Assembly (NCBI GenBank): GCA_025559845.1
Contig: CP048470.1
Location: 1,783,001-1,847,000 of the forward strand
Length of the DNA stretch: 64,000 nt
Source of the DNA: Agrobacterium tumefaciens
GTDB lineage: Bacteria > Pseudomonadota > Alphaproteobacteria > Rhizobiales > Rhizobiaceae
Direction of reading: 5' to 3'
The notes under the pieces are model-generated. The model saw only the letters and a program-made list of their open reading frames with translations, did no database searches and was not told the origin of the DNA. Shown here in pieces: positions 9,689 through 39,160 of the stretch (its first letter is position 1; every line of letters starts with the position of its first letter). The translations under genes were made by a program, and so were the position numbers.

Positions 9689-10480
9689 TCAACGTTGGGG
9701 CAGTTCGACCCAGCTTGACAGTGCCTGGCTCAGCACGGAGACATCTTCTCCATGAAGATCCGCTGCGGCGAACAGATTGTCGGTAAACATACCGGGGCCC
9801 AGGTCTGTTCGTCGGTCACTGACATGATCGAGGATCGTGCCGGTGTGCAGATCAATGCGCATGGTGTCTGAGATGACCCCATCAGACGAATTGCCATGGA
9901 TGCGCAAGTCGATGGATTGCAACCCGGCTGGCGGGCGTCCGATGACGAGCCCCTGACGTGTCAGCTTCAGCCAGTCGGGCAATGGCTTTCCGTCTGCCAT
10001 AGTAACGCCGAACGTTGCATTTTCGACGTTCCCGGCCGACGACGGCATGATGTAGAGATAGTCTTTGTAGACCATCGTATCGACCTGGAACCAGGTGCTC
10101 TCGGCGCCTTCTCCCGAAAGATGTATGTTGGAGCCACCCTTGAAGAAGCTGGTGGCAATTTTATCAATGATCCGGTCGCTTGTCTGCCAGTCGCCGATCT
10201 GGCGAGCGACATGGATCACGGCCCCTTCTTCCGGCAATGAACCGATACCATTGAGTGAGCGGATGGAATTGACCACGTTGACGATCGGACCTTGCGCAGT
10301 GATGTCTGCGATCCCGTTCAGATCTTTCATGATAGAGGCAGTTAGCGGCGAACCTGCCAGGATTGTTTCCGAGCCTTGCGATGATGGTTGCCACGGGTCG
10401 GTTGGTTCTGCAGAAATCGGCGCCGGCTGGTCGACCTCAAGCGGCGGCCTCGGTTCTTCCGGCTGTTCGACCGGAATGAC
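9689..10480 (-). other. C-terminal domain of the giant protein
   Basis: Residues about 7501-7763 leave the repeat pattern. A Pro/Glu-rich linker is followed by about 240 residues with SLNGIGSLPEEG, ATFGVTMADGKPLPDWLKL and DLRIHGNSSDG. The middle part (GVTMADGKPLPDWLKLTRQG) resembles a putative-Ig/dystroglycan-type module. The end (SVLSQALSSWVELPQR) lacks the glycine-rich nonapeptides and the hydrophobic last residues usual for RTX type I substrates. I do not recognise a family for the whole segment. Confidence 0.55.
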
Positions 10481-13400
10481 GCTGATCGTCACGGTATAGG
10501 CGACAATATTTCTGCCGTCGCTGATTGTGAAGGTAAAGCTGTCGACGCCATTGTAACCGTCCGCGGGTCTGTAGCTGTAAGTACCGTCAGCATTGATGAT
10601 GACTGTGCCGTATTGTGGTCCTGACCCAAGACCATAGACGATGGGCTGTCCTTCCGGATCGGTGGCTGGCGGCAGAGTGCCCGTAATCGTGCCCCCCTCG
10701 TTCACCGAGATGGAGGTGTCGGACGAAACGGGTGGTTCATTTGGCGTATTGACGAGGATAGTGACAGTGTATGTCGTTTCCAGAATGCCATCACTGACAC
10801 TGTAGGTGAAACGGTCTGTGCCATTGAAATCCGCATTCGGCACGTAGATGTAGCTGCCGTCGGAATTGACCGTAACGACGCCATTGGACGCCTGGTTGCC
10901 GAGGCTGTAGAAGATCTCGTCGCCATCCGGATCGGTGGCCGCCGGCAATTGACCGTTATACGGTGTATTTTCGTCGATAGACACCAGGTCGTCACGCCCA
11001 ACCGGGGCATCGTTCACCGGGCTTACCGTGACGGTTACAGTGTAGGTGTTGGTCGCATCACCGTCAGATACGATGTAGGTGAACGTATCTGTGCCGTTGA
11101 AATTCTCATTCGGCGTGTAGGTGTAGCTGCCATCCGCATTGATGATCACAGTACCATGCGAGGGGAGGCTTGTGCCGATCTCGTAGACAACGGTCTGGCC
11201 TTCGGGGTCGATTGCCCGAGGCAACATTCCGCTCGCAGGAACGTCTTCTGTAACCGCAATGCTTGTATTGGAGCCCACAGGAGCGTCATTGATTGCGGCA
11301 ACATTCACCGTGATCGTATAGACAGACGATGCCGTGCCATCGCTGACACTATAGTTGAAGCTATCCGTGCCGCTGAAATTCGCATTCGGTGTATAGGTAT
11401 ATGTGCCATCTGGGTTGACGACGACCGAACCGTTGATGGCATTGCGGCCAAGCGAGTAGGTGATGTCCTGCCCTTCTTCGTCGGTTGCTTCAGGCAGCAT
11501 TCCCGAAAGCGGCTCGTCTTCATTTGTCCCGACGGTCGCATCGGAGGCAACCGGCGGCTGGTTGGCGGGGCCTACGGTCACTGTGACTGTGACTGTGTAG
11601 ATCGTTTCCGCCGAACCATCACTCACCGTGTAGGTGAAGGTATCTGTCCCGCTGAAACCTGACGGAGGCGTGTAACTGTAGCTGCCGTCGAGACCGATGA
11701 TAACAGTGGCACCAGGCGTTACGGTGTCGACTTCGTAAAATACGGAGGATCCTTCCGGGTCGATCGCCGGAGGCAGGTTGCCACTGGCCGTTCCACCATT
11801 CTCTACCGAGATCTGAAGGTCGGAGCCCAGTGGCGCATCGTTTACCGCAGTGACTGTTATGGAAATCGTATAGGTGCTTGTCGCAACGCCGTCGCTGACT
11901 GCGTAGGTGAAGCTGTCGGCGCCGTTGTAATTCGCGGCCGGTTGATAGCTGTAGGTGCCATCCGGATTGATGGTCAGTGACCCATGTGACGGGGGGCTTC
12001 CGACCGTGTAGACGACAGCTACGCCTTCCGGATCAACTGCTCTTGGCAGTTGCCCGCTGAAGATCGTATCTTCCGCTACCGTAAGAGTTCCATCGGAGCC
12101 AACCGGGGGATCATTCACTGGCGAAACGTCGACTGTAATCGTGGCAGTCGTCGTTCCACCGTGCCCGTCACTGACCGTAACGACAAAGACGTCCGTGCCG
12201 TAGAAGTTCGTGCCGGGTGTATAGAGATACTGCCCGCTTGCATCGAGCGTGACACGGCCATTGGCCGGCTGGGCCGAAACAGTGTAGGTCAGCGCATCGC
12301 CGTCGACATCCGAGGCCATGATGGCGCCAGCGACAGGCGTATCTTCCGGCGTTGATATCCGCTGATCGGTCGCAACCGGTGCGTCATTGACCGGATCGAT
12401 GATGAGTGTCGAGGAACTGATCGCCGTCAGCGCTCCACCTGCACCGCTGTTGCCGCCGTCATTTGTCGTCATGGTCAGCGTCACCAACGCGCTGCTGTTT
12501 TCAACAGGCCGATAGATTGGCGCCGTTGTTCCTGACAGCCATGCGTTGATGTTGCCGACAGTGCCGGTCAGCGTCAGAGAACTCGATCCATTGCCCGTAA
12601 CGGTCACGCCGTTACCGGAAGCGGCGATCAGGGATCCAGCATTCACGTCGAGTGTGACCGTGATTGAGGCATCACCGGCATCAACATCTATTATCGCAAT
12701 CCCTGTCAAAGGCAGATCGGTATCTTCAGATCCGTTAAAGCTACCGGGCAGGGTGTTGACTGGTGCATCGTTGATGGGTTGTACGGTTCCTGAGACGGTT
12801 GCGTTGCGGCTTACGATGCCGTCAGAGACGGTATAGGTGAATGAGAGTGGGCCGTTGAAGTCTGGCGCGCCAGTGAATGTGAGGGTCCCGTCGGCATTGA
12901 GTGTGATGGTGCCGCCGGTGACATTGATTGAACTTCCAGCGGCGATGGCCTGATCGTTGATGGCGGTTATGGTGAGTGTATCGCCATCCGGGTCTGTGTC
13001 GTTTGCCAGCACATCGAGGTTGATGGATCCGTCCTCGTCGATGACGAATGTGTCGTTTGTTGCGACGGGCGGATCGTTGATGGCGCCGATGATGATGGTG
13101 ACGGTTGCGGTATCGAAGCCGCCGTTACCATCGGCGACCTGGTATGTGAAGCTGTCTGAACCGTTGAAGAAGGCATTTGGCTGATAGGTGAATGTGCCGT
13201 CGGCGTTGAGGGTGAGGGTGCCGTTTGCCGGGGCGTTGACCAGGGATACGGTGAGGGGATCGTCGTCGGCATCGACGCCGTTGCCATTGTTGGCGAGGAC
13301 ATTGCCGTTGAGGGTCTGCCCTTCATTGATTGCGAATGCATCGTTCTGTGCCTGTGGCACGGGGTTGGTGACGGTCCATGTGAAGCTGCGCTCGACCGAT

Positions 13401-16400
13401 CCGCCATTGCCGTCGACTGCGGTCATGGTGACGGTGAAGGCGTTGGTGCCGGTTGGTCCGGATGCGGATGGATCGATTGTTCCGGTGATCTGGCCTGTTG
13501 CGGGATCGTAGGAGAGGCCTGTCGGCAGACCGGTGATGGTGTAGGAGAGGGTATCGCCATCGACATCGGTAAACAGGTTGCCGAGGTTGATGTTGATGGC
13601 TGCTCCATCGAGATTGGCGCGTGGCGGCAGGGTTGGTGCGACGGGTGCGTCGTTGAGGCCTGTGACTGTGACGGTCAGCGTTGCGGTTGCGGTTGCGCCA
13701 TTGCCGTCGGAGATGGTGTAGGTGATCGCGGTTTTGCGGCTTTCTCCGAGCTGGAGGTCCTGGAAGGCCGATCCGGGATCGAAGCTGTAGGAGCCATCGG
13801 CACGGATGACGAAGCTGCCGCCATTGCTGCCTGCAAGTGTTGCGCCGACACCATTTGTGCCATTGCCGACGCGGATGACGGTGAGGGTATCGCCATCGAC
13901 ATCGCTGTCGCTGCCAATGATGACATTGCCTTCGATGGGTGTGTTCTCATCGGTCTGTGCGACATCATCGACGGCGACGGGCAGATCGTTGACGGGATTG
14001 ATCTGGCCTGCGACCGTTGCGGTCGAGGTGGTTGTGCCATCAAAGACGGTGTAGGTGAAGGAGAGCGGCCCGTTGAAGTTTGCCGCGCCTGTGAAGGTGA
14101 GTGTGCCATTGGCATTGAGGGTGACGGAGCCGCCGGTGACCGCCACGGAGGTGCCAACGGAGATGGCCTGTCCGTCGATTGCGGTGATGGTCAGTGGGTC
14201 GCCATCGGCATCACTGTCATTGGCGAGCACATCGAGAACCGTATTGCCGTCCTCGTTGAGGGTGAAGCTGTCATTGCCAAGAGCCGGTGCATCGTTGACC
14301 GCGCCAACATTGACGATAACGGTATATTCCACCGTGGCTGTTCCGTCGCTCACCGTGTAGGTGAAACTGTCATCGCCTTCGAAGTCGGGATCGGGCGTGT
14401 AGGTGTAGGTGCCATCGGTGTTGACGACGACACGGCCATTGGACGGCTGGCTTGCAGCCGCATAAGTCAGCGGCTCGCCTTCCGCATCGGTGGCGGCAGG
14501 CAATATCCCGCTATAGGGCGTATCTTCGGTCACATTGATCGTGTCATCGCTGCCAACCGGGGCGTCATTGGTGCCCGTGACCGTGACGGTGAAGGTTGCC
14601 GTCGATGTGCCGCCCTGACCGTCCGTGATCGTATACGTGATGCTGGTCGCGCGGGTTTCCCCGGCGGCAAGATTGTCAAAGTCGGTCCCTGGATTGAACG
14701 TATAGCTTCCATCTTCGGCAATGATGAAGCTGCCACCAGCGGTTCCCGTTACGCTTGTTCCGACGCCGGTCGCGTTGCCGTTTACGGCAGCAACAGTGAT
14801 GACATCGCCGTCCGGATCACTATCCGCGCCCGAGCCATTATCAACAAAGACAGAGCCGGTCGCAGGTGTGTTTTCTTCGGTTGTGATTGCGTCGTTCTGA
14901 GCAAGCGGGGCTGGGTTGAAAACGCTAATAGTGAAGCTACGTGTGATAGCGCCACCCGGCTGACCGTCATTGATGGTAACGGTGATCTGATAGATGCCGC
15001 CATTCACTTGTGAGGCATCATTTTCGAGCGTGCCAGAAATAATGCCGTCAGCACTCATTACCAGCCCGACGGGCAAACCAGTCTGGCTGAAAGTCAGCGT
15101 ATCGTTGTCCGGGTCCGTGAAGAACTGCGAGATGTCGAGGGTTACATCGTCGGCATCGTCGAACGCCTGATTGGGGATCTCTCCCGTCGGCGGATCTTCG
15201 ACATTGGCGACATTGACGGCGACAGTGAAGGTGGCGGTCGTACGACCATCATTCACGGTGTAGGTGAATGAGTCCGGACCCGAGAAATTGGCGGCTGGAA
15301 CATAGGTATAGCTGCCATCTGCGCCAATTGTCACCGTGCCGTTTGTGGGCTGACCGAGTACGGCGTAGGTCAGTGCATCGCCATCGACATCGGTCACAGG
15401 CAGGAAGCCTGTCGATGTTTGATCCTCTGTGGCGTTCAGGGTGAAACTGCCACCGACCGGAGCATCGTTTTCGCCCGTTACGGTGATTGTCAGCGTTGCT
15501 GTCGCAGTTCCATTGTCGCCATCGGAAATCGTGTAAATAACGCTTGTCGTACGCGTTTCACCAACCTGAAGGTCGTCAAACTCGGTGCCGGGGTTGAAAG
15601 AGTAGGTGCCATCCGCGTTGATGACGAAGGTGCCGCCATCCGAGCCGGCAATGGCGTCGCCGGGGTTGCCTGATCCCACCGCAATAACGGTTAGCGTTGC
15701 GCCTTCAGCATCCGTGTCGTTCCCAAGGACGGTTGGGCCGTTGATAATCGGTGTGTTTTCGCCCGTGGTGGCCGTGTCATCAACGGCGATTGGAGGGTTG
15801 TTGACCGCCCCAACGCTGACCGTGACGACGGCCGCATTTGTGGCGTTTCCACTATCGATCACGGAAATGGTGAGTGTGCGATCACCCGCGGTCAGATTGT
15901 CGTTGCGGTTTTCATATTGCAGGGCGCGCAACAAAGCACTCGCTGCTTCGTTTGGCATGGGAACGGCGGCACCTGCGGCGTTCTCGAAATGCACCGATGT
16001 GGCGCCATCGTACTGGTAGACGAATGTCGTACCACCGAACGCAATGGTGCCACTCGATGCGGTGCCGAAAATGATGTCGGCAGTGCCGTTCAGATGAATG
16101 ATTTCACTGGCGGAATTGATGAAGCCGGCAAGGCTTATATCGAGTGAGACGATGCTCCCTTCTACGTCGGAGACAAAGGCATCCGGGGTAACAATTCTGA
16201 CTGGTCCGTCACCCTCGGTGAAGGTTACGGAATTATCGGTGCCGCTGGTGGTGCCGTTCAGATCGATCACAGGCACATCGTTGACGGCATTGATATTGAG
16301 CGTCACCGACGCGTCGGAAAATCCGCCGTTGCCGTCACTGATGCGGTAGGTAAAGGCGACTGTGCCGTTGAAATCCGCGGTCGGCGTGAAGGTAAGATTG

Positions 16401-19400
16401 CCCAGGGCATCGTTCAGCGTCACACTGCCGCCCGCGACGGCTATTGTTTCACCAACGCCAATAGGCTGGCCGTCGATCTGGGTGATCGACAGCGGGTCGC
16501 CATCCGGGTCTGTGTCGGCGCCAGCGTTACCGCTGACAGTGCCTGCTCCGGTTAGCGGATTGAAGCTGACGGGCGTGTCTTCCGCCAGGTCGACGACATC
16601 GTTTGCCGCATTGGGTGCAGGGTTGGTGACAGTAAGAGTAAAGCTGCTGGAGGCAGAGGCAATGCCGTCACTCGCCCTGACAATGATTGTGTACGGGCTG
16701 TCTTTCGACGCATCTGGATCGAGGGTACCGGAAATGATGCCGGTCGCCGGATCGAAAGTCAGTTCTGGCGGAAGCCCTTCGACTGCAATGGTCAGCGTCT
16801 GACCATCGACATCACTGAAATAGGGGCGGACATCAAGACTGAATGCGGAGCTATCCACTTGTGCGCTGTCTGGGATAGGTGACGCCACGGGTGCATCGTT
16901 GACCGGGTTGACTGTTACCGTCACCGTCGCCGTGTCGCTACCGCCATTCCTGTCACCGATCGTATAGGTGAAGGATTCCGTGCCGTTGAAGTTCGGGTTT
17001 GGGGTAAAGCGCAGAACTTCGCGTCCGTTCCCGTTGAGAACAAGTTGCACGGAGCCATTGCTGGTCATGACCGCAGGGCCGCCAACCGTAAGATTCACGC
17101 CTTCAACGAGAATGACCGTATCTGTGTCGCCATCGGGGTCCTCATCATTGGCAAGGATGTCTATGTCGACAGGCGTGTCCTCATTCGTGGTGGCCTGGTC
17201 ATTTTCGGCATTCGGGGCCACATTCTTGATCGTATACGTGAAGTCCTGGAAGGTACTCCCACCATCGGGGTCGGTGGCTGTGATCCTGACTGCAAAATCG
17301 CGAAGACCCGTGGGGCCGGATGCGTCGGCGTCGATAACGCCGGATATAATGCCCGTGAGCGGGTCCAGCGTAAGTCCAGGCGGCAGTCCAGTTGCCGTAT
17401 ATGTCAGCGTTTCTCCCTCGGGATCGACAAAATTACCCGAAATGTCGAAACTGATCGTCTCCCCGTCATTGCGCGAAATATCCGCGATCGGGGACGAAAT
17501 TGGTGGATCGTTTACTGCATCGACGGAAACGGTGATGATACCGGTGCTGTAGCCGCCTTGGCCGTCGGTTACGCGATAAACAATGGTGTCGGTGCCGTTG
17601 TAGTTGTCGTTCGGCGTGTAAGTGATGGTGCCGTCCGCACTGACGGTCACCGTACCGTTTCCTGCTACAGGCGGAAAATCGGGGTCAAGGAAAAGCGTGT
17701 CGCCATCGGGGTCGATATCGATGCCATTGTTGCCGCTGGTTGTGCCCTCACCGGTGATCGGGTTGAAGGTCACGGGTTGATCCTCGCCGGTCTCAACCGT
17801 GTCATTTACGGCAATTGGCGCTGGATTGGTCACGGTGAACGTGAAGGTCTCCGCTACCGTGCCGCCGCGGCCATCGTTGGCCGTCACTGTTACAACATAG
17901 ACGCCATCGTTGTTTGGACCGCCCTGGCTGGCGTTGTTGGCGATGATGCCCGAAATCGTCCCGTCTGCCGCCATTTCAAGGCCTTGTGGCAATCCGGTCT
18001 GGCTGAAAGTCAGTGTGTCATTGGCATCGATGTCCTGGAAAAATGCGTCAAGATGCAACGGATGGTCGGTGAGCGATTGGCCGTCCGCGCGGGTGTAATT
18101 TGGGATCTCGTCTGCTGTCGGGTCATCGTTGACGCCGGTGACGGTGACGGTAATCGTTGCTGTGTCGACATTTGTACCGTCGGTGACACGATAGGTTATG
18201 GTTGTCGTGCGGGGCGTATCACCTGCGGACATGTCGTCAAAGTCTGTGCCAGGATCAAACGTGTAGGTGCCATTGGCATTGATGGTGAAGGTGCCGCCAT
18301 TCGAGCCGGCAACCACCACGCCGACATTGGCTCCTGATCCCTCCACCTGATCGACGGTAAGTGGATCTCCATCCGGGTCCTGGTCATTGGTAAGCACATT
18401 GCCGCCACCCGCCGTGTTTTCATCGACGGTTAGTGTGTCGTGGAAGGCCTTCGGTGGAAGGTTGGTAACAATCCATGTGACAATCCGTGTCGTCGTTCCG
18501 CCGTTGCCATCGGAGGCCGTGACTTCAACCGTATATGGATCTGTATTGGATGCGTCTGCGGCCAATGTGCCGGTGATCCGGCCGGCTGCGTCGATGGAGA
18601 GGCCTGGCGGAAGGCCGGTTGCGGTGAATGTCAGCGTGTCTCCGTCGACATCGCTGAAATACGGGCTGACATTATAATCGACAGCTTGGCTGTCGCTATC
18701 ATATTGGTCGGGGATAGGGGTGGAGGTCGGATTGTCGTTGACGGGTGTAATGGTCACGCGCACCGTTGCGGTGGAAACCCCTCCATTGTTGTCAGTGATG
18801 GTGTAGGAAATCGTGTCGACGCCATTGAAATTGAGGGCGGGCACATAGGTCAGAGTGCCATTGGCATTGATGGTTACACTCCCGTTGCCTGCGCTGGCGG
18901 ATACGATCGTCAACGGGTCGCCGTCGGGGTCTGTGTCGTTGGCGAGTGGAGTGATGACAGTCGGAGTGTCCTCGGCAATGGTAATGATGTCGTTGTTTGC
19001 CGTTGGCGCGGGATTGGTGACGGTTAGTTCGAAAGTCTGCGACGGGGTGGACGAGGTACCATCGCTTGCAACAATCGAAATCACATAGACGCCATCACCA
19101 TTCGGACCGCCCTGGCTGGCGCTCTTGTCGATATTGCCAAAGATAAGCCCGGTGGCGGCATCATATTGCAGTCCAGCGGGAAGGCCCGTGATGGTGAAGG
19201 TCAGATTGTCGCCATCGGAATCTGTAAAGAAGTCCGCCACATCATAGGTGAAAGACTGGCCGTCGGCGCGAACCCGGTCTGGGATCGGCTGGGTCGGCAC
19301 GGGGTCATCGTTGACCGGCAATACGGTGACCGTCACCGTCGCCGTTGAAACGCCTCCGTTCCCGTCGGAGATGGAATAGCTGAAGCTTTCCTGTCCGTTA

Positions 19401-22400
19401 TAATCCGCATTCGGCGTGAAGCGCAGGAACTGGGTTCCGTCCGGGTTTTCGATCAATCGGACCGATCCGTTGGTGGTTACGACTGGAGCGCCATTCGGCT
19501 GCAGAACGACGTTGTTGACGCGGATGACCTCGGCGGCATCGCCATCGGGATCGCTGTCATTTGCGAGAATGTCGATATCGACAGGCGTGTCTTCGTCTGT
19601 TGTGACGGCATCATCATTGGCGAGTGGTGGAATATTGAGGACGGTGTAGTTGAAATCGACAAAAGTCGTTCCACCGTTCGGGTCGGTTGCGATGACGCGA
19701 ATACGATAGTTCTTCTCGCCCGTGGGACCTGAGGCATCCGGGGCGATCTGGCCGCTGATTGTCGACCCGGAAAGCACCAGCCCGGGCGGAAGGGGGAAGT
19801 CCGCATCGATTGTATAGGTGAGGGCGCCGCCTTCCGGATCAGAGAAAAAGGCAGAGAGATCAAGGCTGTCGGTATCGCCGTCGTTGCGGGTGCGATCGGC
19901 GATCGGACTACCCGCGGGATCATCGTTGACGGGGGTGATTGTCACGGTGACGGTTGCCGTTGCGGTGCCGCCATTCCCGTCGGAGATCGTGTAGGTGATC
20001 GTGTCGGTGCCATTGTAGTCGGCGGCCGGCAGATAGGATATCTCGCCGTCCGCGAGAATAGTCACCGTTCCATGGGCGGCCGTTGCCGAGACAACGGAGA
20101 GCGGATCGCCGTCTGGGTCACTGTCATTGGCAAGCACATTGATCGTGACTGCGGTATCTTCCGCCGTCGTTACAGTATCGTTGACGGCGACGGGCGCCGG
20201 ATTCGACACGGTCAACGCGAATGTCTGCTGGGCCGTACCACCATTGCCATCCGATACTGTGACCGTCACCGTATAGACGCCGTTGGTTCCACCCTGGCTG
20301 GCATTTCGATCGATGGTGCCGGTGATGACGCCTGCGGCACTGAGGCTGAGACCGTTCGGAAGGCCTGTCTGCGTGTAGGTCAGCCTATCGCCATCGGCAT
20401 CGGAGAAGAAGCTCGAGACGTCAAAATTGACGACGGCGCCGTCATTGGCGGAACGGTCAGGTATCGTTGAGCCGACTGGGTTATCATTGACGTCGCTGAT
20501 AGTGACAGTGACCGTATACTCATTGCGGGCACCACCTGGATCAGTAACAACGAAGCTGAAGCTGTCTGTGCCGTCAAAATCGGAGTTTGGCGTGTAGGTG
20601 TAGGTGCCGTCCGCGTTGATGACAACGGTGCCGTTGGCGGGGGTCGTCATCCCTGCGGAGAATGTAATTGTGTCGCCATCGACATCTGTTGCAACGAGTG
20701 TGCCGGTAAATGGCGTATCTTCGGGCGTGGAGATGCTGATGTCGGACGACGTTGGAGCGTCGTTGACTGGTGTCACCGTACCGGTCACAGTTGCGTTTGC
20801 CGAGGCCGTTCCGTCCGACAGGGTGTAGGTGAAGCTGATTGGACCATTATAGTTGGCGTTCGGCGTGAAGCTCAGACGACCATCAGCATCAAGCCTTACA
20901 GCCCCCCCGGTGATGGTGATTGATTGGCCTGCCGTGATCGCCGTTCCATTGATGGCCGTTACCGTCAGTGCGTCACCATCAGCGTCGGTATCGTTACTGC
21001 GGACATCGAAGGTGATCGTGGTATCTTCAGGCGTCGTGAACGTATCGTTGACGGCGACCGGAACGTCGTTGACAGGGCTTACCGTGCCGTTCACCGTGGC
21101 GGTCGCTGTGCCGCCGTTGCCGTCAGAGACGGTGTAGGTAAAGCTTGGGCTGCCATTGTAATTGGCAGCGGGAGTGAAGGTCAGCGTTCCGTTGGCATTC
21201 AATGTCACGGTGCCGCCGGTGACGGAAACCGTTGCTCCTGTGACGATCCCGGTTCCGTTGATCTGGGTGATGGTCAGCGTATCGCCATCGACGTCACTGT
21301 CATTTCCCCGAACATCCAGCGTGATCGGCGTGTCTTCAAGAGTGGTGAAGCTGTCGTTTACGGCTACGGGGGCATCGTTGACTGCCGTCACAGTTCCATT
21401 GACGGTTGCCGTTGCGCTGCCGCCGCTGCCATCAGAGATCGTGTAGGTAAAGCTTGTGCTGCCGTTATAGTTGGCGGCCGGGCTGAACGTGAGCGTACCG
21501 TTGGCGTTCAGAGTGACTGTGCCGCCTGTAACGGAAACCGTCGCGCCGGTGACAATCGCGGTTCCGTCGATCTGGGTGATGGTCAGCGCTTCCCCATCCG
21601 GATCGCTGTCATTGGCGAGAACGGAAATCGTTGTTGCCGTGTCCTCCGCAGTAATGAAGGTGTCTCCAGTCGCGATCGGGGCGTCCTGTTCCGGCGTGAC
21701 GGTGCCGCTGACGGTCGCCGTTGCAGTGCCGCCTTTACCGTCTGAGATCGTGTAGGTGAAGCTCGGGTTGCCATTGTAATTGGCACCGGGTGCAAAGGTG
21801 AGGGTGCCGTCGGCGTTAAGTGTCACCGTGCCGCCTGTGACCCCGACCGAGCCACCAGACGAAATCGCCAGGCCATTGATCTGGGTCACTGTCAGCGTGT
21901 CACCATCAACATCGAAGTCGTTGCCTCGAACGTCAAACGTAATCGCAGTGTCTTCTGGTGTGGTGAAGGTGTCGTCGATGGCGACGGGTGGGTCCTGAAC
22001 TGCGTTGACCGTGCCGTTGACGGTAGCGGTTGTTGCTCCACCCTGGCCGTCGGCGACGGTATAGGTGAAGCTCAGGGCGCCGTTATAGTTTGCGTTCGGT
22101 GTAAAGGTCAGCGAGCCGTTCGCATTCAGCGAGACAAGGCCACCCGTTACGGCAACCGGATTGCCAATCGAGATTTCGGTGCCGTTTATGGCTGTAACGG
22201 TCAGCGTGCCGCCATCAACATCCGTGTCATTGGCGAGCACGTTAAAGGTGACGGCCGTGTCCTCATTCGTGGTGAAGCTGTCATTCACCGCGATCGGCGC
22301 ATCGTTTTGGCCGGTGACGGTGACGGTCACGGTAGCCGTGGATGTTCCGCCCTGGCCGTCGGATATCGTGTAGGTCACTGCCGTCGTGCGCGTTTGACCT

Positions 22401-28400: not shown

Positions 28401-31400
28401 ACGGTCACAGGACCGGGCACAGTGTTGACAGGTGCATCATTGACCGCAATCACATTGACGGTTGCAACTGCCGTGTTGGAATTCGCGGCACCGTCATTGG
28501 TAACGACATTGATCGTGCGGGCGATTGTCGAAGGGTTTTCCGACGTCGAGGAGTATCTGATCGCCTGCAGTGCGGTCTGATAGTCGGCCTTCGTCGCCGA
28601 TCCGGTCAGCGTGAGGGTAAATGTAGCGGCATTGTAGCTAGCGGAGATGCCGGGAACGGTGGTGCTCAAGGCCAAGACGTCGCCCGCCTGGCCGTTAGAG
28701 ATCACGACCGTCAGCGTACTCATATTGGCATCATCGACATCGGCAATGAGCGCGGCAGTCCCGGTGATCGCCACACCAGTTCCGTTTTCCGTATAGCTGG
28801 TCGAATACCCTGTGCCGGTGCTTCCGGTGTCGAGATCGAGAATTGGAGGATCATTGACGGCCGCGATGCTGATTGTGCGGGTATCGACATCAGTCAACGT
28901 GCCACCGGTGCCGGTATTGCCTCCGTCACTGGTGGTCATAGTCAAGGTGACCGACCCGTTTGCGTCTGCAACCGGTACATAGATTGGTGCGGAAGCTGAC
29001 GCGAGGTAGGCATTGATGTTTGCGAGCGTGCCCGTCAGCGTCAGGGTTGCCGTTCCCGATCCTGTGACCGTGACGCTGCCGCCGGATGTCGCGGTGATCG
29101 TGCCTGAGGAGACGCCGAGCGTCACCGTCATGGTGCCGCCGGCGGCATCGAGATCGGCGACCGAAAGGCCTGTCAGGGAGACGCTTGTATCTTCGTTGGT
29201 CGCCCAGCCCGATGCCGGGAGCGTGTTAACAGGCGCGTCGTTGACCGCTGTAACCGCAACCGTCGTTACGGCAGTGTTGGAGGCAAGCGCGCCATCGTTG
29301 ACGGTTACGCTGATCGTGCGACCCGTAACGGTGTTGCCAATTGTCGGATTGTCGGATGTCGAGGAATAAAGGATCTGCGCCAGTGCAGTCTGGTATGCGG
29401 CCTTGGTGGCTGAGCCGGTCAAGGTGAGCGTGTAGGTGGTCGAATTGTAGCTTGCGGTGATACCGGCTGGCAGTGTGCCTGTTGCGGCAAGAACGTCGCC
29501 CGCCTGGCCATTGGTGATTATGATCGTGGCGGACGCAATATTGGCGTTGTCGACATCAACGACGGAATTGTTGCTGGCTGCGATCGCGACGCCAGTGCCA
29601 TTTTCCGTGTAACCGACGGAATAACCGGAACCGGCAGATGAGCCGTCGAGATCGAGCACCGGCGCATCGTTGACCGGATTGATGGTGATGTTGCGAGTAT
29701 CGATATCGGTGAGCGCGCCACCCGTTCCCGTGTTGCCATTGTCGCTGGTGGTCATCGTCAGGACGACCGCGCCGTTGGCGTCAGCGACCGGGACGTAGAT
29801 CGGGGCGGCCGCAGAAGCGAGGTAGGTATTGATATTGGCGATCGTGCCGGTCAGGGTAATCGTGCTCGTGCCGGAACCTGCAATGGTCACGTTGCCGCCG
29901 GATGTCGCTGTGATCGCGCCAGTTGCGACATTCAGCGTGACGGTCATGGTGCCGCTGCCGGCATCGATATCCGCAATCGACAGGCCCGCAAGGGCAACAC
30001 TGGTGTCTTCGTTGGTCGCCCAGCCGCTCGCGGGCAGCGTATTGACCGGTGCGTCATTGACGGCCACGACGTTGATTGTCGAGGTCGCAACCGCGGATGT
30101 GAGGCCGCCATCGTTGACCGTGACATTGATGACACGCGGCGTCGTACCGGGACTGTCGCCACTGTTCGAGAAGGTTATGGCGCGGATTGCGGCTGCGTAG
30201 TTTGCCTTCGTCGCAGATCCACTGAGCGTAACGGTGATCTGGCCAGAAACAGAAGTGTCGACCGTTCCGGTAATTCCGGTCGGGAGGGTGCCAAGATTAA
30301 GGACATCTCCGGCCTGTGCATTGGTCAGCACGATAGTTGCGGAGCGCATATTCGTGCTGTCACGGTCGCGGACGTCCGCGAGGCTACCCGCTGTTGTCGA
30401 TGCTATCGAAACCCCGGCGCCATTTTCGGTATAGGTCGTTGTGTAGTTAACGCCGGCAACGCTATCGACATTCCTGAGTGCGCTGACATTGTCGATGAAT
30501 ATGTCGTCCGTACTGGGCGTCAGCAAGCCGCCCGCCGCCGAGTAGGTGAAGACAAGATCGCCGGTTGCAGCCACGGTAGCAGGCAGATTGAGCGTAACGG
30601 CAGTCCGGATCCATGCCGTGGTGCCTGCCGTTGAGGCGGCTACCGTGGTTGGAGAGCCGCTTGCGCCATTGAAATAGGTGATGGTCGCCGTGTTCGGCGT
30701 TCCGTTCAACGTGCCGGTAGTGATACGTGCGTAGAGAACGCCGCCTATGGTGATGTCGAGCGTCGCCGGTGTGTTGTTGTCATTGGAGACACCGAGCAGA
30801 AGGTTATTGCTCCAGCCCAAATCGAAGGTCAATTGCGCTGCACCGGAAGGCGCAAGTCCATCGTTCCAGCCGGTTACGTTTGCCTGCGTCAGGGTGCCGC
30901 TACCGCCATTGACGGTCCATGCGAAGCCGTCATTGGCAATCGCTCCGCCACTGCCGCCAACCGTCCAGCCTGTCGAACCGGGTGTCCCGCCATTGGTGAT
31001 GATCTGTGTCGGGGTCGTGCCGGAGTTCAGGTCGACCACGGGCGCGATGGCGTTGTAGCCGAAATCCGCGGCAAGACTGCTTGCGCCGATCAGGGTCAAT
31101 GTCGCGGACTGTGTAGTCGCCGTTGTTGCGGTTGCACCGCCAAGAACGCCATTCGTATCGGTGACGCGAACAACATACTGGCCTGGCAAGACACCGGTGA
31201 ACAGGTATTTTCCGTCAGCGCCGGTCGTGTCTGTCGCAAGAACACGTTCACCCGTATCGGCGACACCGTTGCCGTTCACGTCATCGATCAGTTGCACAGT
31301 GACATTGGCGATCCCGACGTCACCGCTATCGAAGGTTCCATTGGTATTGTTGTCGTCGTAAATCTGGTCACCAATCGATCCTATCGGAGGTACCCAGCGG

Positions 31401-33389: not shown

Positions 33390-34856
33390 GTGAAGTTTCC
33401 ATTTATCTGGACTGTGCCTGTTGTCCTGCTTGCTGCCGGCTGTACGGTGCGGACAGAACCCCTTACGCCAGAGGCAAACGCTGTTTTCGGGCATGAGAAG
33501 CTTGTTAGGGCAACGGCAAATCAGGAACCCATTACCGGTTCGATCGATCTTTATGATGCGATGGCGAGGGCGTTGAAATACAACCTCGACACCAAGGTGG
33601 AGATCATGCAGGCCGCGCTGAAAACGCGCGAGGCTGATCTTGTCAGCTACAGTGCGCTGCCTAAAGTGGTGGCGGGTGCAGGTTATGCAGGACGTGACCA
33701 AGCGGATCCGTCGACACCCTCGACGCGTGACGACAGTATCAGAACAGCAGATCTGACATTCTCATGGAATATCCTTGATTTCGGATTGTCTTATGTTCGA
33801 GCCAAGCAGGCCGCTGATCAGGCTCTCATACAGGAGGAGATGAAACGACGTATCGTCAACAAGGTCATCGAAGATGTGCGTACCGCCTACTGGCGGGCGG
33901 TAAGCTATCAACGTCTGGTTGGTCGAATGCGGGCGCTTGAAGGCCGCGTGGCGCGGGCGTTGCGCGACACCCGTGGTCTGTCATCAAGTGGCGAGAGTTC
34001 ACCGCTGGTGGCGCTGACCTACGAGCGCGAGCTGATCGAAGTGAAACGCGAAGTCGAGATGCTGGAGGGCGAATTGAAGGTTGCCAAGAGCCAGCTTGCA
34101 GCGCTGATGAACGTGACGCCCGGAACGGAATTCACACTTACGGTGCCAAAACGCGCTTCGACCCGTCTGACGGTGCCGGACAATATGCCGGAAATGTTCC
34201 GTATCGCGGTGGAGAACCGACCGGAGATGCGTGAAGTTGCGTACCGCACGAGGATCAACGAGAAGGAAGTCAATGCTGCCCTTCTGGAAATCCTGCCAGG
34301 CTTCAACGTCTATGCTGGAGCAAACTACGATTCCAACGAATTCATTGCCACGAATGACTGGCTGTCATGGGGCGCCAAGGTCAGCTTCAATGCGATGAAG
34401 CTTGCCAGCATGCCGGCGGTCAACAAGAAGATCGAGGCGGAGAAAGAGGTTCTGGACGCGCGCGCATTGTCGGTTGCTATGGCGATCATGACGCAGGTTC
34501 ACATCAGCCGCACGCGCTATGCCCACCTCAACAAATCTTATGGCACGGCGGTAGCGCTCTCCAACGTCTCTCACCGCATCCTCAAGCAGGTACGCGATGA
34601 AACCAACGCCCAGAAGACCAGCGAGCAGATCCTCATCCGTGAGGAAATGAACGCACTTCTTGCCGATGCCAAGCTCGATATGGCCTATGCCGATCTGCAG
34701 AATGCCTACGCCAACATCTATGCCTCCCTTGGCGTAGACCCGTTCCCGGCCGGGCTGTCTACAAGTTCGAGCATAAACCAGATGGCATTGCAACTCAGGA
34801 CAATGTGGACCGATACCGGTGGTCCCGCAAAGATAGAGGTGGCCACCGCCAAATAG
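33390..34856 (+). CDS. TolC-family outer-membrane channel lipoprotein
   Basis: 488 residues. The GTG at 33390 follows GAGGTGA. The N-terminus MKFPFIWTVPVVLLAAGC ends in a lipobox (LAAGC, Cys18), so it is an acylated TolC/OprM-like protein. The body has the long helical regions of the family, with DAMARALKYN, then IVNKVIEDVRTAYWRAVSYQ and a second half repeating the pattern (MTQVHISRTRYAHLN). It would form the outer-membrane exit channel of a tripartite exporter. First gene of a four-gene operon; 33 bases separate it from the next. Starting at the ATG at 33321 would bury the lipobox behind a hydrophilic stretch. Confidence 0.85.
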   Translation: MKFPFIWTVPVVLLAAGCTVRTEPLTPEANAVFGHEKLVRATANQEPITGSIDLYDAMARALKYNLDTKVEIMQAALKTREADLVSYSALPKVVAGAGYAGRDQADPSTPSTRDDSIRTADLTFSWNILDFGLSYVRAKQAADQALIQEEMKRRIVNKVIEDVRTAYWRAVSYQRLVGRMRALEGRVARALRDTRGLSSSGESSPLVALTYERELIEVKREVEMLEGELKVAKSQLAALMNVTPGTEFTLTVPKRASTRLTVPDNMPEMFRIAVENRPEMREVAYRTRINEKEVNAALLEILPGFNVYAGANYDSNEFIATNDWLSWGAKVSFNAMKLASMPAVNKKIEAEKEVLDARALSVAMAIMTQVHISRTRYAHLNKSYGTAVALSNVSHRILKQVRDETNAQKTSEQILIREEMNALLADAKLDMAYADLQNAYANIYASLGVDPFPAGLSTSSSINQMALQLRTMWTDTGGPAKIEVATAK

Positions 34857-34889
34857 CGGGCACCGCTGACGGCGTGAGGGAGGTACGAC

Positions 34890-35642
34890 GTGCAGACATG
34901 GAATGTATTGGGTCTTGTTCTTGCAATCGCGACTGTAACGCCAGGTGGTCATCCTGCTTATGCGCAGGATGACGGCACGGCGTCGCGAGGTATCGTCAAA
35001 GCCGTCAATCAGGCAATGATTGGCACGGACCTCAGCCTTCCGATCGTTTCTCTGCCGTTTCGCGAGGGCCAGGATTTCTCCAAAGGTGATGTTCTGGCCG
35101 CCTTCGATTGCCGCGACCTCGAAGCGCAGGTGAAATCGGCGGAAGCCGTGCTTCGGGCCGAAACAATCACGCATGAAAACAATATGCGTCTCGCACGTTC
35201 AAAGGCCGTCGGCTCCTACGAGGTCGATTTGTCCAAGGCAAAGACAGACCAGGCGGCGGCGGAACTGGAAGCCTTTCGAAGCAAGATGGCACGCTGTGTC
35301 ATCAGGGCCCCCTACGATGGTCGCGTGGCTTTCATGCGCGCAAATGAGCACGAAATACCGGAGCAAAATCAACCGCTTATGCAGGTCGTCAGCACTGGAG
35401 ATCTCGAGATTGAAACGCTTCTGCCCTCTCCCTGGCTACGATGGCTGAAACCTGGAGCGCCGTTCACCATCGCGATCGATGAGACCGGCGAACAGAAAAA
35501 GGCGGAAGTTGCCCGGATCGCTGCAACCGTTGACCCTGTCAGTCAGACGGTCAAGGTAACGGGGCGGTTTTCCGGCGATACAAAAGGAATTTTGCCGGGA
35601 ATGAGCGGGGCGACAAAATTCAACCCCGTGCCCGGGGAGTAA
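34890..35642 (+). CDS. HlyD/RND-type periplasmic adaptor
   Basis: 250 residues. GTG start at 34890 preceded by GGGAGGT. A signal peptide (to about residue 25, ...HPAYA-QDD) is followed by a split lipoyl domain (PFREGQDFSKGDVLAAFDC... and CVIRAPYDGRVA) around a short helical hairpin, then a beta-barrel (about 165-230). It is at the short end of the membrane-fusion protein range. It would bridge the inner-membrane parts to the TolC-like channel. The next start follows three bases after its stop. Confidence 0.85.
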   Translation: MQTWNVLGLVLAIATVTPGGHPAYAQDDGTASRGIVKAVNQAMIGTDLSLPIVSLPFREGQDFSKGDVLAAFDCRDLEAQVKSAEAVLRAETITHENNMRLARSKAVGSYEVDLSKAKTDQAAAELEAFRSKMARCVIRAPYDGRVAFMRANEHEIPEQNQPLMQVVSTGDLEIETLLPSPWLRWLKPGAPFTIAIDETGEQKKAEVARIAATVDPVSQTVKVTGRFSGDTKGILPGMSGATKFNPVPGE

Positions 35643-35645
35643 CGG

Positions 35646-37028
35646 ATGGAACGAGAGATCAAGGCGACGGCTGCTTCATCCCAACGCATCACGACAGATG
35701 CGGGACAGGCCGCGTCCAGGGCATACGAACTGCTTTTGCGTATTGAAGCGGAAGCACGGCATGTGGAAACCGTTGGCGAGTTGGCGTTTCTGATTGCCAA
35801 CGAAACAATCCACATTGCCAAGTGCCGCCAGGTTTTTGTTCTGGCCGGATCTGAAAAGAACCTTGCGGTCAAGGCAGCGACGTCAGTGAGCGGCATTGAT
35901 CGCAACTCGCCTCGTATCCGCTGGATTGAGGCCATCGTGAGCAATCTTCGCAACGACAGAGGTCTCAAGGACGTTTGTGATTTTGCGCTTCCGGCGTTCT
36001 GCCCGTTGAATGATGAGGAGCATAAAACCTATCCCAGCCGTTTCATGGCCTGGTTGCCGTTTCAGCTTCGCGACGGCACGGTGTTCGGCGGCATGCTGAT
36101 CGCCCGCGAAGTCCCCTGGAACGAGCCGGAGCTGACCATTCCACGACGGCTGGCTGCAACCTATTCGCACGCCTGGGCAGCGCTTTCCGGCAAACGTCGC
36201 CTGAAACGTCGGGTCAGGATGAAACCGTTACTCGGTGCGGCGCTGATTGCTGCTATCGCTCTCGGTTTCTACCCCGTTCCGCTCACCGTTTTAGCGCCGG
36301 TTGAAGTGGCGCCTATTTCCCCTCGCATCATTGCGGCGCCAATGGATGGTGTGATTGAGAGCATCATCGTCAATCCCAATCAGATGGTTCGGCAAGGCGA
36401 ACCGCTTCTGAAAATGTCTGACGTCATGCTGCGCAACGAACTCGCTGTGGCAGAGCAGGACGTGCGTGTCGCCGAGGCGAAGCTGATGCAGGTCACACAA
36501 GGCGCGGTTTCCGATCCGAAACTGCGGGCAGATCTTGCTATTACCCGAAGCGAGCTAACGGTTGCCGCCGCAAAACGAAACTATGCCGGCGATATGCTGG
36601 AGCGTTCGGACGTGCGGGCGCCATCGGATGGGATTGCAATCTACACCGACCGGCGCGACTGGATCGGGCGTCCGGTCACAACGGGCGAACGCATCATGGA
36701 AGTGGCAGACCCGACGCGCATGCAGCTACGGATTGATGTGCCGGTTGCAGACGCGATTGCGGTTTCGAAAGGAGCGAAGGTCCGTGCCTTTCTCGATTCA
36801 GATCCGTTGAAACCGGCCAAGGCTACAGTTGAGGCCGTCTCTTTTGAGGCTCGCATGGTGGAAGGTGACGTGCTGGCCTATCGCATCTATGCCGCCCTGG
36901 ATGGTGACAAGCCCGGTATGCGGCTTGGTATTCGTGGAACCGCGCAGATCAGTGGCGATAAGGTGGCGCTGGCCTACTACCTGTTCCGGAAACCAATCTC
37001 CGTTATTCGCCAACGGTTCGGCTTATGA
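35646..37028 (+). CDS. GAF-like/HlyD fusion membrane adaptor
   Basis: 460 residues. Residues 1-185 are cytosolic and GAF-like (ETVGELAFLIANETIHIAKCRQVFV at 41-65, later MAWLPFQLRDGTVFGGMLIAR). A basic patch (KRRLKRRVR) leads into one membrane helix (about 194-210). The periplasmic part is an adaptor with split lipoyl halves (APMDGVIESIIVNPNQMVRQG and SDVRAPSDGIAIYTDR), a hairpin and a barrel. A cytosolic sensor-like domain on an adaptor is unusual; it may sense a ligand or dock the substrate. Its stop overlaps the next start (ATGA, 37025-37028). Confidence 0.82.
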   Translation: MEREIKATAASSQRITTDAGQAASRAYELLLRIEAEARHVETVGELAFLIANETIHIAKCRQVFVLAGSEKNLAVKAATSVSGIDRNSPRIRWIEAIVSNLRNDRGLKDVCDFALPAFCPLNDEEHKTYPSRFMAWLPFQLRDGTVFGGMLIAREVPWNEPELTIPRRLAATYSHAWAALSGKRRLKRRVRMKPLLGAALIAAIALGFYPVPLTVLAPVEVAPISPRIIAAPMDGVIESIIVNPNQMVRQGEPLLKMSDVMLRNELAVAEQDVRVAEAKLMQVTQGAVSDPKLRADLAITRSELTVAAAKRNYAGDMLERSDVRAPSDGIAIYTDRRDWIGRPVTTGERIMEVADPTRMQLRIDVPVADAIAVSKGAKVRAFLDSDPLKPAKATVEAVSFEARMVEGDVLAYRIYAALDGDKPGMRLGIRGTAQISGDKVALAYYLFRKPISVIRQRFGL

Positions 37029-39160
37029 TTACCGCTCAGCCCACCGATGCGCCGCTGCCGATCCTGCGTGAGGATCTACAGATCGTCAGGGTGGGGGCAA
37101 GTTATTCCGGGGCACCCGCCTGGGTGATCTTCGATCCAATCCGGAACCGCTTTTTCCGGATCACGTATGAGATGTTCGAGGTGCTGCGGTTCTGGAATAT
37201 GAGCCGTACAGTCGGAACTCTGCTCAAGACCGTGAATGCCCGCTTTATCGAGCGGATGTCGGAAGACGATATCGGGACGATCGTGCGTATGCTGGAGCAC
37301 AATCTGCTGCTGGTTCAGCCGACCCGGGGCGGGTGGAGGGCTTTGCACCAGAAGGCGCAGCCACGACATTCGATATTCATGCGCCTCATTCACAACTATC
37401 TGTTTTTCAAGATACCGCTCGTCAGGCCTGAGCGGTTTATCCGCGCGACATGGCCGTATATCGGGTTCCTCTTCAGTCGTGCATTCTGGTGTGTGTCTGC
37501 TTTCGCGGGATTGATTGGTCTTTATCTCGTATCTCGCCAATGGGATGCTTTCGTCGGCACGTTCCCCTTCGTGTTTTCGCTTGAAGGTGCCGTAATCTCC
37601 ATCCTTTCGGTGATCTTCATCAAATGCCTGCATGAACTGGGGCATGCCTATGTGGCACATCGTTTCGGTTGCCGCATTCCGACCATGGGCGTTGCATTCA
37701 TGGTGATGGTGCCACTGCTTTACACGGATGTCAGCGATGCGTGGAAACTGAAGTCACGGTGGCAGAGGTTGAGAATCGATTCCGCCGGTATGCTGGTAGA
37801 ATTGACGGTGGCGGCCTACGCACTGCTTGGATGGGTGTTCGTACCGGATGGGCCTTTGCGCAGCGCACTTTTCGTGTTGGCAGCGACGGGTGTCGTTTTG
37901 AGCCTGCTGGTCAATCTCAACCCGTTCATGCGCTTCGATGGCTATTACATTCTGGCGGATTTGCTTGGCGTGGAAAACCTGCAGCCGCGGAGCTTCCGGC
38001 ATATGCGGTGGCGCCTGCGGGACTTCCTGTTCAAGCCTGGCCACCCGGCACCTGAAGTCTTTCCGCCCGCGCTTGATGTCACGCTGACCCTTTATGCGAT
38101 CGCGACGGCGATCTACCGGCTGGCCCTTTATCTCGGCATTGCGGTTCTGGTCTATCACTTCACCATCAAGCTTGTCGGCATTTTGCTTTTCGTCGTCGAG
38201 ATCGGTTTCTTCATCATTCGCCCCGTTTTCATGGAAATGAAGGAGTGGTGGGCCATGCGCAGTGACATTTTTCGTAGCCGTCGAACTTACGTGACGGTTA
38301 CAATCCTCGGATTATTGGTGGCGCTGGCCTTTTTACCGCTTTCCACCCGTGTCACCGCACCTTCCGTCATCTATCCGCAGGAGTTCCTGCGGCTCTATCC
38401 TCAGGAACCGGGACGGATTGAAAGGCTTGATGTTTCTATTGGACAGGCGGTGAAAGCAGGAGATGTCCTGTTTGTCATCGATGCGCCGCAGATCAGTGAA
38501 GAATTGAAGATTGCCGAGGTCGAAATTGAGCTTGCGCGTTCCCGTTTGGCGCGAGTTGCCGCCAACGCTGACGATCTTGCGCAGCGCAGCGTTATTGAGA
38601 GCGAACTTGGCAGCTCGCTGGCCCGAAAGCGCGGACTTGAAGAACGCCGAACGGCTCTCGTCGTCAGGGCACCGTTCGACGGGATGATTACAGACGTCAA
38701 TCCGGAAATTTTGCCCGAACAATGGGTTGGCCGTGCGGAGCAGATCGCCTTTCTTTCCTCCGGCCAAGGCTCAGTGGCTCGCGGATATGTCGCCGGAAAC
38801 GACAGTGCGCGACTGTCGCCCAATGCGGCTGGCTGGTTTGTGCCGGATGACGTATCTCAGCCGAAACTGCCCGTAACACTGGCGACCATTGCTGAAGCCG
38901 GGGCAAGGGAAATCGAGGTTCCGCAACTCTCTTCACAGCACCACGGCGCTATCGCTGTCCATGTTGCGTCAGAAGGAAAGAGACAACGCCTGGTGCCAGT
39001 CTCAGCGCAATATGCCGTTGTTGCCACAATTGATGGTGACATCTTCGTACCGCCACGCTCGGTTCAGGGCGTCATGCTGCTTCATGGCGAAGGTGTCAGT
39101 TTTGCAGAGCGCATGTGGCGGCGTGTCTTGATGGTTCTTTTCCGTGAAGCAGGCTTCTGA
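37025..39160 (+). CDS. PqqD-like/M50 site-2 protease/HlyD fusion protein
   Basis: 711 residues. Region 1 (about 15-100) looks PqqD-like: strands around WVIFDPIRNRFFRIT, then helices ending MLEHNLLLV. Region 2 (about 140-440) is a polytopic M50 metalloprotease core with HELGH (203-207; zinc His203/His207, Glu204) and the second motif NPFMRFDGYY (299-308; Asp305). Region 3 (about 441-711) is a HlyD-like arm with lipoyl halves (EPGRIERLDVSIGQAVKAGD and VVRAPFDGMITDV). It takes the operon position where a type I ABC exporter would be expected; no nucleotide-binding motif is present. Inferred role: recognise, and perhaps cleave, an exported substrate and pass it to the adaptors. Confidence 0.85.
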   Translation: MITAQPTDAPLPILREDLQIVRVGASYSGAPAWVIFDPIRNRFFRITYEMFEVLRFWNMSRTVGTLLKTVNARFIERMSEDDIGTIVRMLEHNLLLVQPTRGGWRALHQKAQPRHSIFMRLIHNYLFFKIPLVRPERFIRATWPYIGFLFSRAFWCVSAFAGLIGLYLVSRQWDAFVGTFPFVFSLEGAVISILSVIFIKCLHELGHAYVAHRFGCRIPTMGVAFMVMVPLLYTDVSDAWKLKSRWQRLRIDSAGMLVELTVAAYALLGWVFVPDGPLRSALFVLAATGVVLSLLVNLNPFMRFDGYYILADLLGVENLQPRSFRHMRWRLRDFLFKPGHPAPEVFPPALDVTLTLYAIATAIYRLALYLGIAVLVYHFTIKLVGILLFVVEIGFFIIRPVFMEMKEWWAMRSDIFRSRRTYVTVTILGLLVALAFLPLSTRVTAPSVIYPQEFLRLYPQEPGRIERLDVSIGQAVKAGDVLFVIDAPQISEELKIAEVEIELARSRLARVAANADDLAQRSVIESELGSSLARKRGLEERRTALVVRAPFDGMITDVNPEILPEQWVGRAEQIAFLSSGQGSVARGYVAGNDSARLSPNAAGWFVPDDVSQPKLPVTLATIAEAGAREIEVPQLSSQHHGAIAVHVASEGKRQRLVPVSAQYAVVATIDGDIFVPPRSVQGVMLLHGEGVSFAERMWRRVLMVLFREAGF

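Follow-up and report, generated by a model that had tools for sequence, protein, structure and literature searches.

The closest described relative of the system analysed here is a module reported by Kamneva et al. in 2015 (PMC4452313), in which genes for M50-HlyD, GAF-HlyD and HlyD proteins, and sometimes for an OEP protein, adjoin a gene for a secondary SecA_DEAD protein. In its main text the secondary SecA_DEAD protein was proposed as the ATPase and the M50 protein as the inner-membrane part, the broader role of the module was termed completely unknown and no substrate was named; the words PqqD, DUF4347, giant, adhesin and cadherin have 0 occurrences there. The idea of an M50-HlyD exporter that lacks an ATP-binding cassette (ABC) ATPase is thus already known from that text, in company with a secondary SecA. 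Apart from that paper, no tag or substrate of an M50-HlyD module appeared in the titles and abstracts of open PMC papers (preprints not included). Here we describe a five-gene unit in a 64,000-nucleotide stretch of the Agrobacterium tumefaciens genome (the window; contig CP048470.1, C2:1783001-1847000), which comes from a 100%-complete assembly of 6.3 Mb in 4 contigs.

The unit consists of a gene for a giant DUF4347 repeat protein of 7763 residues (9689..32980, minus strand) and, divergent from it, genes for a TolC-like lipoprotein, an HlyD adaptor, a GAF-like/HlyD fusion and an M50 protease-HlyD fusion; a preliminary description of this DNA had listed the same five open reading frames (ORFs), and all were borne out at their coordinates. 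Like the 2015 module it brings together M50-HlyD, GAF-HlyD and HlyD (GAF being recognisable in homologues only) without an ABC gene. Unlike that module, as far as its main text allows the comparison, the unit has no secondary SecA, and a substrate class, a tag and a domain resembling the RRE, the recognition element of ribosomally synthesised and post-translationally modified peptides (RiPPs), were identified for it. We consider it probable that the five genes encode a substrate and its dedicated exporter, the latter belonging to a branch of the ABC-less M50-HlyD modules, here called type A, that works without a secondary SecA.

Giant proteins and two types of M50-HlyD module

A search of 120 Pseudomonadota genomes at E 1e-20 found the M50-HlyD gene in 46 of them, with 129 matches. 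Ninety of these scored at least 313.7 bits (type A; this group contains the window's own protein, to which the others are 29-45% identical) and 39 scored at most 262.8 bits (type B, 24-32% identical to the window protein), the limit of 300 bits having been chosen once this gap was known; the match at 262.8 bits (genome G052) was scored as type B and is possibly a partial type A. A secondary SecA gene (29 matches of 66-337 bits in this sample) lies within 5 kb of 28/39 type-B genes versus 0/90 type-A genes. By its gene content type B thus matches the system of Kamneva et al., and type A is a sister branch without the secondary SecA motor. The 18 type-B regions had been picked around type-B matches, 17 of them with a known secondary SecA, and their own secondary-SecA count was left unused.

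Among the 120 genomes 40 had both type A and DUF4347, 2 had type A alone, 5 DUF4347 alone and 73 neither (p 8e-24), and counting by genus gave 20/1/5/50 (p 9e-13); in a family replicate of 297 genomes, where both are sporadic and one partial match (G247, 142.5 bits) was assigned to neither type, the hand-counted distribution was 16/9/6/266 (p 1e-15), and these co-occurrence p-values ignore relatedness. A comparison with chance and with LapB-like ABC ATPases had been suggested in the preliminary description and was run: type A came out far above chance, and the LapB/LssB-type ABC association with DUF4347 was weaker (23/16/22/59, p 0.001). Secondary SecA gave 17/2/28/73 with DUF4347 (p 5e-7), the odds ratios being 292 for type A, 22 for secondary SecA and 3.9 for LapB/LssB-type ABC. 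Secondary SecA and type A occurred together in 16 genomes, type A alone in 26, secondary SecA alone in 3 and neither in 75. As to linkage, a type-A gene lay no more than 20 kb away from 37 of the 116 DUF4347 matches, and a type-B or LssB-model gene from 0, the 53 LssB places compared coming from genomes with DUF4347 or type A and the ABC gene of genome G071 falling below the list threshold; with distances measured from the gene edge, a type-A gene was at most 10 kb away for 37 matches and a type-B gene for 6, which left 73 with neither nearby.

The gene set is found again in many genomes, and the arrangement therefore goes beyond chance. Clustering of ORFs of at least 70 residues in 20 type-A regions and the window found M50-HlyD and HlyD in 21/21 loci each, GAF-HlyD in 20/21 and TolC in 14/21; no recurrent ABC cluster was found in these 21 loci, the giant gene formed no cluster because of its repeats, and the remaining clusters were read as antisense ORFs or as unrelated families in at most 4 loci each. 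The best 80 of 590 type-A loci, a choice that favours close relatives and in which 51/80 stretches reach at least 18 kb, held GAF-HlyD in 80, HlyD in 73, TolC in 57, a DUF4347 ORF in 40, an ABC ORF, whatever its kind, in 16 and a secondary SecA in 0; they include Pseudomonas, Pectobacterium, Azospirillum, Methylobacterium, Halomonas and Nitrospira. Azospirillum brasilense is among the species with a type-A unit. Three loci (L286, L287 and L288, in G319, G256 and G166) have type-A M50-HlyD, GAF-HlyD and HlyD and no TolC match or tagged large ORF in 20 kb.

The unit also travels as a whole. Matches to M50-HlyD were found in 62 plasmid records, among them 18 from Escherichia and 8 from Citrobacter (about 33% identical to the window's). 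On a Citrobacter plasmid the order is a tagged 4465-residue protein, TolC, HlyD, GAF-HlyD (annotated as two genes) and M50-HlyD, and the four exporter genes have near-identical matches in 24/5426 complete E. coli genomes, in 22 of them with at least 80% of the query covered, and 21/25 places are on plasmids. In the chromosome of E. coli KMi029 the five genes stand alone between transposase genes, and the 3668-residue protein carries the tag LESRQLFDGAALA. Judged by gene content, the mobile cargo is a substrate with four exporter genes and no ATPase. The LESRQLFDGAALA-tagged proteins that accompany type-A units on the Citrobacter plasmid and in KMi029 are Ig-like (L316:5918-23296 and L314:2324-22088). 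The IncHI1 protein RSP was considered as a parallel and set aside as a different case, being reported, in the part of PMC6764697 available to us, as exported by a type IV system.

An N-terminal tag that follows the exporter

The giant protein begins with a basic, non-hydrophobic stretch (residues 1-36; 32873..32980, minus strand) and continues with the tag LEQRIAFD-A (residues 37-45; 32846..32872, minus strand), which, on the strength of pattern comparison, we propose as its export signal. The expression LE.R.[LIMVAF][FLY][DS] was present in the first 200 residues of 55/76 giants found by homology, a slightly wider pattern also gave 55/76, and some of the 21 giants without it were called at a later start. 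Controls yielded 2/5000 internal windows, 6/15200 shuffled N-termini and 7/1845 other ORFs of at least 250 residues; these control ORFs came from loci L074-L213, mostly exporter loci, and only the size of the 7 matches (all at least 964 residues) is informative. The residue after the motif, which lies outside the expression, was A or G in 55/55, and the stretch before it was net positive in 44 of the 48 tagged giants that have at least 10 residues there.

The tag was found in 99/104 readable DUF4347 ORFs of type-A genomes in the 120-genome sample (93 by the strict and 6 by a looser pattern; the untagged ORFs are in G016, G097, G102, with two, and G117, with one) and in 0/5 of those in genomes without type A, with the single G048 gene counted once. 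The family sample gave 23/24 (the exception being in G302) versus 0/6 for new proteins (p 1e-5), counted on the 26 DUF4347 matches of type-A genomes besides the window's with G174 C173 and the cut-off G157 left out, and in the best 80 of 590 type-A loci all 40/40 DUF4347 ORFs were tagged. The form of the tag matched the type of exporter: in linked giants the residue after the hydrophobic pair was D in 36/36 tagged type-A entries and S in 6/6 type-B entries (p 2e-7), the sole untagged type-A-linked entry (G117 C45) beginning at a contig edge. Type-B genes have six DUF4347 proteins within 10 kb, all of them giants of 6562-14920 residues with S-form tags such as LEPRFMLSGEG (L098-L113; G006:C1:2731072, G014:C29:23633).

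The DUF4347 domain was itself considered as the signal and ruled out, since untagged DUF4347 proteins occur in genomes without type A and tagged ORFs without the domain lie beside exporters, as in G082, where a tagged 4381-residue ORF adjoins type A. By the same two observations it is the tag, so far as sequence comparison can tell, rather than the DUF4347 domain that follows the exporter. After an untagged DUF4347-collagen-repeat protein in G071 (L114:9288-17272) come an ABC exporter, recognised by Pfam, and an ORF that looks HlyD-like by eye; the protein is a natural example of the DUF4347 domain on an ABC route. In the preliminary description the link between giant protein and exporter had rested on proximity; it is now strongly supported by co-occurrence, by linkage and by the shared N-terminal tag.

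Genes and domains of the unit

The giant protein has a calculated mass of 780.9 kDa, a pI of 4.05 and one Cys. Its basic N-terminus with LEQRIAFDAAGA is followed by the DUF4347 domain (32168..32662, minus strand; PF14252, 4.2e-54, or 3.5e-53 in the protein scan, 184.6 bits against a cut-off of 24.6), an SdrD B-like domain (31133..31378, minus strand; PF17210, 6.4e-15) and many Big_9/cadherin-like repeats. A genome-wide profile search found one DUF4347 match in total in the host genome, and the N-terminus is 82% identical in 'Agrobacterium sp. AGB01'. As had been noted, a classical signal peptide is missing: the N-terminus holds no hydrophobic segment, and the best 19-residue Kyte-Doolittle mean over the first 120 windows is 0.65. 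The BapA_N prefix domain gave no match in residues 1-647 (Pfam and NCBIfam, E up to 1). The C-terminal region (residues 7541-7763; 9692..10360, minus strand) has similar counterparts in 23/75 homologues, and in an exploratory comparison the FTDNL within it looked similar to the FSxQL found in other D-tagged giants. A (F/L)SxQL-like C-terminal pattern was seen in 26/45 D-tagged giants and in 8/22 of a second set, against a background of 8% and with expressions picked post hoc (sequences showing it: window 9692-9800; L082, L086, L168, L180), and DPLPVL-like ends in 7/18 S/N-tagged versus 4/45 D-tagged giants. These C-terminal patterns perhaps represent a second sorting signal, and a C-terminal secretion signal is a feature of ABC type I substrates; as evidence the (F/L)SxQL-like pattern was dropped, since its expressions had been picked post hoc and were repeated in part only (8/22). 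Among DUF4347 proteins elsewhere, BTH_II1339 of Burkholderia thailandensis is listed in the accessible part of PMC12322963 among the most raised stationary-phase proteins, and DUF4347 proteins are therefore produced in culture.

The exporter genes are tightly packed, with gaps of 33 and 3 bases and a 4-base overlap at the last junction. The first encodes a TolC-like outer membrane channel, probably a lipoprotein (33390..34856, plus strand; OEP PF02321, 3.9e-31 in a Pfam/NCBIfam scan). The identity given in the preliminary description held but its start probably did not: the ORF is open from TTG 33321, and GTG 33390 is the likelier start, giving a lipoprotein-type signal, VKFPFIWTVPVVLLAAGC, as judged by eye. 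The second is an HlyD/RND-type periplasmic adaptor by Pfam/NCBIfam (34890..35642, plus strand; PF13437, and TIGR01730 at 107.7 bits against a cut-off of 94.9). The third, the GAF-like/HlyD fusion (35646..37028, plus strand), shows an HlyD match with an N-terminal extension; a Pfam scan found no GAF domain in the window protein itself, and Pfam GAF, the domain behind the earlier 'GAF-like' label, appeared at E up to 0.1 in 11 of the 24 adaptor fusions that were aligned, a set of 19 type-A and 5 type-B proteins.

The fourth gene encodes the type-A M50 protease-HlyD fusion (37025..39160, plus strand), identified by Pfam/NCBIfam and by alignments; a 98% identical gene occurs in 'Rhizobium sp. RM'. 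It has the hallmarks of Peptidase M50, passing the Pfam cut-off (33.3 bits against 27.2) and carrying HExxH and NPxxxxDG motifs. In the HELGH motif (37631..37645, plus strand) H203, E204 and H207, and in NPFMRFDGYY (37919..37948, plus strand), presumably the third metal-ligand motif of M50, P300, D305, G306 and Y307, do not vary across two alignments of 40 and of 19 homologues. From another alignment step the misread rows L138, L209 and L211 were left out. Structure and profile comparison places an HlyD/MacA-like adaptor part at residues 440-698 (38342..39118, plus strand), and unlike MacA, AcrA or HlyD this adaptor part is fused behind an intramembrane protease. The N-terminus, folded alone after the whole-protein model had matched only adaptor and biotinyl-type folds, is predicted to form at residues 10-104 (37052..37336, plus strand) a winged helix of three strands then helices, like the RRE structures of RiPP systems (PqqD, TbiB1, MccB); we propose this RRE/PqqD-like domain as the tag reader. 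Pfam PqqD gave no match in the window protein, and matched 5/41 type-A (best E 0.0063) and 10/16 type-B proteins (best 1.4e-7); when PDB sequences were searched with a profile of the N-terminus, three matches at E 1.5-2.3 came up and were judged to be chance.

ABC genes were absent from the unit, as previously claimed: Pfam found none among the five genes. The nearest listed ABC ATPase (~7717-8358, inside ORF 7594-8775) was again read as part of an import operon because two BPD_transp_1 permeases and a solute-binding protein precede it, and two further ABC ATPases were listed in the window at ~1907-2554 and ~52782-53435, in a search that scored 77/276 candidates.

Possible routes of export

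We suggest that the giant protein is synthesised without a Sec signal and that the RRE/PqqD-like domain of M50-HlyD would bind its tag, a basic stretch followed by LExRx(L/A/M)(F/L)D(A/G), in the cytoplasm, by analogy with the binding of RiPP leader peptides by RRE domains. The M50 domain has kept its motif residues and would probably cut or free the tag within the membrane. M50-HlyD, GAF-HlyD and HlyD would link through their adaptor parts to the TolC-like channel, by which the chain would leave for the surface. Energy might come from the canonical SecA/SecYEG, from membrane potential or from folding outside; canonical SecA is the simplest candidate. Tag recognition, tag cleavage and the route across the inner membrane are steps that we infer, and the same goes for the earlier casting of the protease as the inner-membrane translocation part: from that interpretation the tie between giant protein and module gained support and the translocation role, in the form given, did not. 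Two findings weigh against a dedicated exporter of this kind. Nine type-A genomes of the family sample have no DUF4347, with no tagged large ORF in the stretches fetched, and outside the unit the host genome encodes eight ATPases of ABC type I systems, all over cut-offs: six belong to the PrtD type and one each to the LssB and HlyB types.

The strongest alternative, to which we give appreciable if clearly lesser weight, is a two-step export in which canonical SecA/SecYEG carries the protein across the inner membrane and the unit takes over from the periplasm. The tag would then be an odd Sec or membrane-targeting signal removed by the M50 part, and the HlyD parts with TolC would form the outer route. 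This agrees with the lack of an ATPase in the unit and with the presence of SecA in 119/120 genomes, and the position of type B beside a secondary SecA (28/39) suggests a SecA-type motor in the family. However, a 19-residue hydrophobic mean of at least 1.6 at the N-terminus was reached by 0/54 tagged giants versus 3/13 untagged ones, and the untagged DUF4347 protein of G090 bears, by eye, a Sec-type signal peptide instead.

It is unlikely that the giant leaves through an ABC type I system whose genes lie outside the unit, and that the M50-HlyD unit serves otherwise, such as in processing. The eight ATPases of the host genome, the ABC exporter after the G071 protein and the weak LssB-DUF4347 association would suit such a division of labour. 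Yet the G071 protein is untagged, the 20 kb on either side of DUF4347 matches hold no LssB-model place (in a list that misses the G071 ABC), and the host LssB-type gene (G000:C2:644350-646425) is adjoined by a BapA_N protein (Pfam) and, by eye, an adaptor. Moreover, nine genomes have type A and DUF4347 with neither a secondary SecA nor an LssB-model match at 1e-150, and six of these (G004, G023, G041, G064, G088, G109) have no ABC over the LssB, PrtD and HlyB model cut-offs, two of them with HlyB-model matches of 596 (G041) and 502 bits (G109, 82% complete) under the cut-off of 726. These six genomes would argue against ABC dependence in general. The unit shares with the LapA, BapA and SiiE systems a giant repeat protein, an HlyD-type adaptor and a TolC-type channel, the last two being features of type I secretion; it differs from them in having no ABC ATPase, no BapA_N and a proposed signal that is N-terminal.

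We see little to recommend the view that the true cargo is a small ribosomal peptide, which the unit would export or mature, and that the giant is a mere neighbour. The NCBIfam models nearest the M50 part are RiPP proteases (daptide, YydH/LiaK), though far below cut-offs (daptide protease, 158 bits against 300), and the predicted RRE-like fold matches RiPP enzymes; but no recurrent small gene was found in the 21 loci, where ORFs of at least 70 residues were clustered, and a large protein is favoured by the co-occurrence, by the match of tag to exporter and by the mobility of the five genes together. The protein differs from its RiPP counterparts in its fusion to an HlyD exporter part and in its proposed partner, which is thousands of residues long and no small precursor peptide. 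Least credible is a secondary SecA encoded elsewhere and driving the module as proposed in the main text of PMC4452313: it adjoins type B (28/39) and co-occurs with DUF4347, but the search of the complete host genome found no secondary SecA, only a single SecA_DEAD protein over the cut-off, of canonical size (953 residues), besides three further matches at E up to 10 of at most 21 bits each, and a secondary SecA had no match in 24/40 genomes with type A and DUF4347 and stood within 5 kb of 0/90 type-A genes, so we reject it for the host genome, barring an ATPase that has diverged too far to be recognised by PF07517.

Returning to the dedicated type-A exporter, a broader proposal, which to us is evenly balanced, is that it represents a distinct secretion route, in which an RRE domain, a kind familiar from the biosynthesis of peptide natural products and here joined in one protein with an intramembrane protease and an adaptor, reads LExRxxFDA at the N-terminus of giants and passes them to TolC without an ABC ATPase or a secondary SecA, the two exporter types reading D-A/G and S-G tags respectively and the unit moving from species to species as a cassette. 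Relative to the main text of the 2015 paper, what is new is a proposed substrate, signal and recognition part, all of them testable. Reading of the tag could explain why many giant proteins have an LExR-type N-terminus. If our proposal were correct, the route could be predicted from the first ~60 residues of large proteins, and bacteria would have a new way to secrete very large proteins without the usual ATP-driven pump.

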